DNA of 45,762 bases from an uncultured Bacilli bacterium (GTDB lineage Bacteria; Bacillota_I; Bacilli_A; RF39; UBA660): contig CANRKL010000003.1 in NCBI GenBank assembly GCA_947631205.1, positions 1 to 45,762 on the forward strand, given 5' to 3'. Under the pieces are notes generated by a model that ran no database searches, was not told the DNA's origin, and saw only the letters and a list, made by a program, of their open reading frames with translations. How positions within the stretch are numbered: the stretch's first letter is position 1; each line of letters begins with the position of its first letter. The translations under genes and the position numbers were made by a program. Of this stretch, positions 44,195 to 45,762 are shown one piece after another.

Positions 44195-45762
44195 ATGAAA
44201 GATAAAAAGACAATTGGGGGGGGGGTTATTAAATAAGAAGATAGTAATCATACTACTAATTCTTACAATAACCATAACAATAGGAGGAAGTTATGCTTTT
44301 TGGCAAATAACGAAAACTCAAACAGGAGATAACGTTATAACTTCAGGGTGTGTAGACTTAACTATAGATAATCAAAAAAATAATATACAACTTAATAATG
44401 CTTATCCAACAGAAGATAGTGAAGGGCAAAATTTAGAACCATTTACATTTACAGTAACCAATCATTGTAATGTTAAAATGGATTATGAGATAGGATTAGA
44501 AATGTTAAGTGATACAAATTTAGAAAGTAAATATGTTAAAGTATTAATAAATGAAAAAGGAATAAGTGGTAGTTCTAAATTACTAAATAGCTATGATAAT
44601 GAAGATGTAACAATTATAAAAGACGCTAAAGAAGGAAGAATACTATTAAAAGGTAAACTAGAAGCAACAACAGATAATAATAATCCTAGTAAAAAAGAAT
44701 ATGAACTAAGATTATGGTTAGATAATGAAGCTGGAAATGAAACAATGAATAAAACATTTAAAAGTAAGATAGTACTAAGTGGAACAATGGGAAGTGAACC
44801 AACAGTAGTAGATTATGTAAAAAGTTTAGCAGAAGAAGATACAACAACCTTAGCATATGATGATACAAGTGAGCAAAATTTAAGGTATATAGGAAAAGAA
44901 GTAAATAATTATATCGATATAGGAGATAGAGATTCTAGTGGTGGAAAAATCTTATGGCGAATAATAGGAGTCATGAATAACATGACAGTTATAAATGATG
45001 ATAGAAGTGCAAGTTCAGGACAAAGTTTAGTAAAGATAATTAGAGCCGATAGTATAGGGTTATGGAGCTGGGACACATCAGCAAGTGATGTAAATAAAGG
45101 TTATGGAGTCAATGAATGGAGTCAAGCTGATTTAATGATTACTTTAAACTCTGGAATATATTGGAACAAAACAAGTGGTCAATGCTATAATAATTACAAT
45201 GATGCTAAAACAACATGTGATTTTAGTAGTACGGGACTGACAGAAAGTGTCAAAGGCAAACTAGTGAAAGTAAGATGGAATACGGGAACCATGCCTGATG
45301 AATATTCAAGTAATACGAGTAAAATAACAGCAAGCTATATGTATCAGGGAGAGCGAAGTACTCATAATGGAAAAGAGCAATGTAGTGGAGGAAGCTATTG
45401 TAATGATAAAGTAGATAGAACAACAACCTGGGATGGATATATAGGACTAATGTATCTATCTGACTATGGATATGCGGTAGGAGGAGACGTTCGAAGTAGT
45501 TGCTTAGCAAAAACAATGTATAACTGGAATGAAAGTACTCCAGATTGTAAAGGAAACGATTGGTTATATGATAGTAGCAATTATCAATGGACCATAACCC
45601 CTGTCCCTCTTTCGTCGCGTGCTCTCAGTGTGTTCTATGTGTATTCTGGCGGGTACGTGGACAGCAACGATGCCCACTATGCTCGTGCCGTTCGCCCTAC
45701 AGCCTATTTAGATAGCAATATTAGAATTCAAGAAAAAGCTGATAGCGATTATGGAAGTGATA
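44195..45762 (+). CDS. Exported surface protein with SipW/TasA-type N-terminus and variable C-terminal domain; frame interrupted at a poly-G tract; 3' end outside window
   Basis: ATG 44195 MKDKKTIGGG, then out of frame (stop after VIK); continuous frame 44226-45762 LLNKKIVIILLILTITITIGGSYAFWQIT...ITSGCVDLTI...AVRPTAYLDSNIRIQ has no stop to the window end. Confidence 0.75.
44216..44225 (+). repeat. 10-G homopolymer tract (candidate contingency tract)
   Basis: Ten consecutive G; 9 or 12 G joins the ATG frame to the downstream ORF. Confidence 0.9.
45592..45713 (+). other. Candidate hypervariable/DGR-type variable region
   Basis: About 55% GC over 45601-45710 inside an AT-rich gene; encodes TPVPLSSRALSVFYVYSGGYVDSNDAHYARAVRPTAYL with many NNY codons. 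Confidence 0.45.

Follow-up and report, generated by a model that had tools for sequence, protein, structure and literature searches.

The window gene and its GC-rich cassette

The window (the whole stretch of 45,762 nucleotides that was analysed) ends within a gene that is cut by the contig end. The features of this gene, together with those of the template locus elsewhere in the assembly, are as follows.

44195..45762, + strand: DGR target gene, truncated at the contig end
44216..44225, + strand: poly-G tract (G10) within the signal-peptide-coding start
44880..45713, + strand: C-terminal target domain, 278 aa, C-type-lectin-like (predicted) / DUF6273-like
45602..45698, + strand: DGR variable region (VR), 97 bp, as interpreted below
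45687..45698, + strand: GC-rich 3' end common to the template repeat and the VRs, IMH-like, GCCGTTCGCCCT
C46:1703-1800 (L010:1703-1800): template repeat (TR), non-coding, AAY array
C63 (L011:1317-1414): second TR copy

The GC content rose near position 45600, from 0.32 immediately upstream to 0.52-0.58 in 60-bp windows across 45590-45709. A sequence-only reading had already described a GC-rich patch at the C-terminus of this gene; the patch and the quoted translation held, and its extent held in part, the exact cassette (45602-45698) being slightly narrower. That reading had also considered the free positions to be almost all NNY codons in a fixed scaffold. Indeed, the free codons of the window VR were 14 NNY codons and one GGC (GAC in the template), starting at 45609, 45618, 45624, 45627, 45636, 45642, 45648 (GGC), 45654, 45660, 45663, 45666, 45669, 45675, 45678, and 45684; only GCT, which had been listed as free, proved to be scaffold. 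When 25 near-intact copies from the genome were aligned, 29 columns varied strongly and 68 were nearly fixed. Compared with the template inferred from the VRs, the window VR was changed at 18 of 29 adenines and at none of 68 non-adenines. By arithmetic, the 14 AAY codons and one GAC of the inferred template correspond to approximately 15^14 x 4 sequences, all stop-free because NNY never encodes a stop.

The AlphaFold model of the target domain (44880-45713) had a pLDDT of 91 and a pTM of 0.90. The sole strong structural match in the PDB was part of the IgA peptidase of Thomasclavelia ramosa (9qa6; E 3e-6, TM 0.49 on the query), and the weak Foldseek matches (E 0.4 or higher) included many C-type-lectin domains, PvdO, Lcl, and the DGR protein TaqVP. 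The fold is likely to be C-type-lectin-like as predicted by the model, but this is not proven and the Foldseek link is weak. A sequence search of the PDB with the target domain gave nothing, and no family match was obtained for the window protein in Pfam and NCBIfam. DUF6273 (PF19789) matched 5 of 39 family members weakly (best E 0.034), and membership is not claimed on matches of this strength.

The template repeat, the retroelement, and the target family

The sequence-only reading predicted a near-identical template of about 100 bp with AAY codons beside a reverse transcriptase (RT), and would have been refuted had the genome contained no template or RT. Such a template was found on contig C46, and a second copy on C63. 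The TR and VR are near-identical; the VR lies within a gene, whereas the TR is non-coding and is located upstream of MutS_I-like, Avd, and RT genes. The MutS_I-like protein following the TR (120 aa) matched PF01624 with 21.5 bits (cut-off 20.6), and the Avd-like protein (109 aa) matched bAvd PF22296 with 44.7 bits (cut-off 40), its score of 47.3 bits against NF033474 being below the cut-off of 80. RT fragments with GLPIGNLTSQ and YMDD were observed approximately 1.3-2 kb downstream of the TR; DGR-type RTs are defined by the motifs (L/I/V)GxxxSQ and YxDD (PMC3521204), and the best-scoring family models for this RT were generic RT models. The window VR sits on a different contig from the RT and TR, and is accordingly a remote (in trans) target.

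The RT gene of this genome is interrupted by two frameshifts and an internal stop, and the assembly, which is 88% complete (1.15 Mb in 68 contigs), yielded no second RT. The TR copies were also altered. Relative to the inferred template, the two carried changes at ten distinct positions in total, all of them template adenines (P = 1.6e-6 under random placement); these changes fall in five AAY codons and thus represent fewer independent events than ten. Four positions were T in both TRs though the VRs vary there, and a few more were non-A in one TR only. Furthermore, a 1-nt insertion common to both TR copies was present in no VR; the VRs as they now stand were therefore not written from the TR in its current form. 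Adenine mutagenesis of the TR itself, VR-to-TR conversion, and assembly mixing are each possible origins of these scars. On C63 (L011) and on a contig of the congener G002 (L181:2705-2900), both without MSL, Avd, or RT, the TR 5' flank runs into the 3' end of a VR gene, a junction that could have arisen by recombination or as an assembly chimera. A 100-aa ORF with no confident family match lies between the cis target and the TR (L010:1399-1701, L011:1416-1718).

Intact templates were found in four congeneric species and intact RTs of 359-362 aa in three congeners (G004, G005, and G008); in the congener G001, the RT and Avd are frameshifted. The GTDB relatives are uncultured Bacilli MAGs, mostly labelled 'Lapin', which probably indicates rabbit gut, and others come from roe deer caecum and other sources. 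A prophage origin was rejected: the target domain had no match in 50,697 phage records, the phage RT matches were below 60% identity, and the neighbours of the RT locus are chromosomal.

Copy numbers were counted from retrieved stretches together with genome searches. A DNA search of the assembly with the last 263 bp of the window hit 40 places, and the cassette 3' end, GCNGTTCGCCCT, occurred 25 times in the genome (reversed control pattern, 0). When the translated target domain was used, 66 copies were found, so that this domain alone occupies about 5% of the genome (66 x ~0.83 kb); 36 of 37 genomes of the genus were positive, with up to 64 copies in one relative. This scale had escaped the sequence-only reading, as had the poly-G tracts described below. 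Among 54 copies with a readable C-terminus, 21 agreed with the inferred template at no fewer than 90% of the non-A sites, 19 were intermediate, and 14 were largely without cassette similarity; a few further copies were fresh apart from a codon-sized indel. Tandem target pairs were also observed (L019, L026, L037, and L039); their second genes lack poly-G and differ in the N-terminus.

Every A of both assembled TRs corresponded to a variable column, and no fixed column was an A. The difference between A and non-A mismatches was extreme (Fisher P 8e-108 for the C46 TR and 3e-128 for the C63 TR); the cells are not fully independent, and chance is nevertheless excluded as the source of the variable/fixed pattern. 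Four-fold synonymous sites were 98.5% identical inside the cassettes and 75.3% identical in the 40 codons upstream. As the silent scaffold sites are near-identical, the scaffold is held at the DNA level and not by protein selection, and protein-level purifying selection was thus ruled out as the cause of its conservation. Pairwise identity between VRs was 0.96 at template non-A sites, 0.34 at template A sites, and 0.74 in the 60 nt upstream. In a longest-run test, the haplotype stretches common to pairs of VRs did not exceed chance (P = 0.23), and we regard the VRs as independent draws and not copied haplotypes, insofar as a non-significant test allows. The template deduced from the VRs matched 27-28 of 29 adenines in the TRs of the four congeneric species, and in G008 (CANQSO), where TR and RT are intact, 107 of 203 A cells in the VRs of that genome were changed as against 10 of 476 non-A cells. 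Taken together, one TR upstream of MSL-Avd-RT matches at least 25 genome-wide VRs that differ at template adenines and are identical at silent scaffold sites.

In several species (L011, L074, L070, L072, L073, L181, and L209), a covarying hairpin composed of 6 bp, a 2-nt bulge, a further 7 bp, and a short loop was found approximately 80 nt beyond the cis VR, with a GAAA loop in G001. It follows the TR-adjacent target and is missing after most remote VRs. In BPP-1, a hairpin after the VR is needed for efficient retrohoming (PMC3240598); the hairpin-less remote VRs therefore count against writing of these targets by the DGR.

Poly-G tracts at the target starts

A poly-G tract was present in the signal-peptide region near the start of nearly every target with an assembled start. 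In the window gene, the ATG at 44195, with AGGA upstream, is out of the main-ORF frame at the assembled G10, and its product is MKDKKTIGGGVIK followed by a stop. The main frame reads GGGLLNKKIVIILL... and has no ATG of its own. Since G9 or G12 would restore the frame, the tract at 44216..44225 is a putative phase-variation switch, the assembled state of which is inferred to be OFF.

In the 39 targets with both an assembled start and a tract, the length was G10 in 35, G11 in two, and G9 in two. Nine further G10 tracts with the same flank were found at contig edges and that of contig C50 was G9, giving about 48 tracts in total (44 G10, 2 G11, and 2-3 G9). At G10 or G11, the ATG frame meets a stop a few codons beyond the tract, whereas at G9 it reads into the protein. 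In-frame targets (2/39) were rarer than the expected one third (P = 3e-5, ignoring the non-independence of paralogues). Thus, poly-G is carried by nearly all start-assembled targets, most of which have their upstream ATG in the wrong frame. It should be noted that the tract lengths are the consensus of a MAG assembly and that variation (G9, G10, G11) was seen between copies only.

The same design was found in G001, in which the ATG lies 81 nt before a G10. Summed over 37 genomes of the genus, there were 494 G10 and 119 G9 tracts, G10 being the mode. Other members of the genus have the tract in the spacer that separates a -35-like from a -10-like box. Such promoter-spacer tracts of 9-10 G (TTGACA-like box, G tract, TAATAT/TATAAT-like box) precede target and other genes, at L177 2673, L187 1725, L196 5491, L197 4526, L199 2428, and L208 977, and on L289, L296, and others (G001). 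In the own genome, poly-G of 8-11 was observed in or before non-target genes (L254, L253, and L286). The switching device may possibly serve genes beyond the DGR targets. Tract length would set the reading frame or the promoter spacing, as in SSR phase variation; the switching is inferred from assemblies, not from reads. The tract lengths would be accounted for if mutation kept them at an equilibrium near G10 and if the reading frames were set to make that length the OFF state, although this too is an inference.

Interpretation and relation to known systems

We consider it likely (probability roughly 0.85) that 45602-45698 is a remote VR of a DGR, in a mostly silent, phase-varied repertoire of C-type-lectin-like surface proteins. 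The DGR reading made from the sequence alone is supported, as the mismatches fall on template adenines, with the qualification that the broken RT and altered TR copies make current activity in this genome doubtful. In the proposed mechanism, an adenine-mutagenic reverse transcriptase would have copied the TR, and the mutated copies would have been written into the 3' ends of many paralogous C-type-lectin-like surface-protein genes. With G10 as OFF and G9 as ON, tract slippage would allow only a few targets to be made at once, and the cell would thereby keep a large, mostly silent, pre-diversified repertoire. Given a pseudogenic RT and a scarred TR in the strain consensus, VR writing may have ceased recently or may be carried out by an RT/TR copy absent from the 88%-complete assembly.

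The most serious rival is a fossil system, in which the DGR of an ancestor wrote the VRs, the RT and TR have since decayed, and the genes only duplicate, drift, and phase-vary. The frameshifts and internal stop of the RT, the scarred TR with an insertion found in no VR, and the 14 of 54 readable copies that lost most cassette similarity (19 being intermediate) all favour it. Against it, 21 copies retain at least 90% of the non-A sites, and identity at silent sites is 98.5%, as compared with 75% in the flanks; since template match and silent-site identity stayed high while the flanks drifted, writing must have been recent. In addition, RT and TR are intact in congeners and 12% of the own genome is missing. 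We lean slightly away from the fossil explanation without being able to dismiss it. Gene conversion between paralogues, moving the cassette without reverse transcription, corresponds to the recombining cassette that the sequence-only reading had kept as an alternative. Upstream homology is common to the family members, and three VR pairs, including the window VR with the C46 cis VR, share identical adenine-site runs of length 8 or more, against 0.8 expected. However, the longest-run test was not significant (P = 0.23), adenine-site identity between pairs was near random (0.34, with 0.96 at non-A sites), the cassette edges are the TR edges, and the variation tracks the TR adenines. This alternative is therefore disfavoured and appears highly improbable.

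Two further rivals concern the tracts. G10 could be a conserved slippage element causing a polymerase or ribosome frame shift, with all genes expressed at a low level and no phase switch. The uniform length (35 of 39 targets at G10, and G10 the mode across the genus) suits this view, which remains possible, but G9 and G11 alleles exist and congeners carry the same tract in promoter spacers (TTGACA..G10..TATAAT-like), where frame slippage is irrelevant and length switching is relevant. Alternatively, the tract lengths could be assembly artefacts and the genes really in frame. MAGs are generally weak at homopolymers, and several contigs end at tracts; nevertheless, the same mode was obtained from different genomes and contexts, two targets were assembled as G9 in frame, and the congener MAG contigs carry SPAdes NODE names and so are probably Illumina-derived, with G9-G10 usually resolved. 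We regard an artefact as unlikely.

The system resembles BPP-1-type DGRs and the cellular DGRs of Legionella and Treponema in its TR/VR of about 100 bp with adenine-only variation at AAY codons. As in BPP-1-type DGRs, the target, here probably C-type-lectin-like, carries the VR at its 3' end, Avd is present, a hairpin follows the cis target, and the RT has GLPIGNLTSQ and YMDD (intact in congeners). It differs from them in having about 25 fresh VRs per template and 66 paralogues in 1.15 Mb, in its damaged RT and TR, in the absence of a hairpin from most remote VRs, and in the poly-G at the target starts. In Thiohalocapsa PB-PSB1, 9 DGR loci with 15 targets and 21 VRs in 7.95 Mb were reported as an expansion (PMC10907252). 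The system shares with that organism and with cyanobacteria (PMC7517822) its remote, paralogous targets that are diversified in trans, their expansion by duplication, and the occurrence of degenerate DGR loci beside complete ones. Unlike in PB-PSB1, there is one template family here, and a genome one seventh the size holds no fewer VRs; unlike in these multi-target DGRs, no immune-signalling domains were seen and the targets carry a putative homopolymer switch. DiGReF listed at most four VRs per DGR element (PMC3521204), the VRs per element or per megabase in PMC3521204, PMC10907252, and PMC7517822 were far fewer than here, and the relevant sections of Roux 2021 (PMC8144416) gave no per-genome VR maximum. 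The tracts in turn resemble those of poly-G/poly-C phase-variable surface genes of Campylobacter, Neisseria, and Treponema, in which a G-tract lies in the coding start or promoter spacer and one base switches between OFF and ON. To our knowledge, none of those switched genes is diversified by a reverse transcriptase. No case of a DGR combined with homopolymeric (poly-G) phase variation was found in the open-access literature searched, which does not by itself establish that the combination is new.

A DGR typically has only one or a few targets. In the present case, approximately 5% of a host-associated genome of about 1.1 Mb is taken up by one DGR-diversified domain family, which is conserved in the genus and, by inference, homopolymer-gated. 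The system makes it possible to test hypermutation and switching in one bacterium, and whether silent copies are diversified. It also raises the question of why a gut bacterium with a reduced genome needs many surface lectins, with phage escape and host glycans or IgA as candidate answers. In a bolder reading, diversity would be generated in two layers and in anticipation of need: in dozens of lectin genes per genome, silenced at G10, the ligand-binding loops would be rewritten by the retroelement, and slippage to G9 would expose a few variants per cell. The odds are, in our judgement, a little against this reading; if true, a genus of gut Bacilli would have conserved a bacterial counterpart to those receptor repertoires that are made in advance and expressed in a near-exclusive manner.
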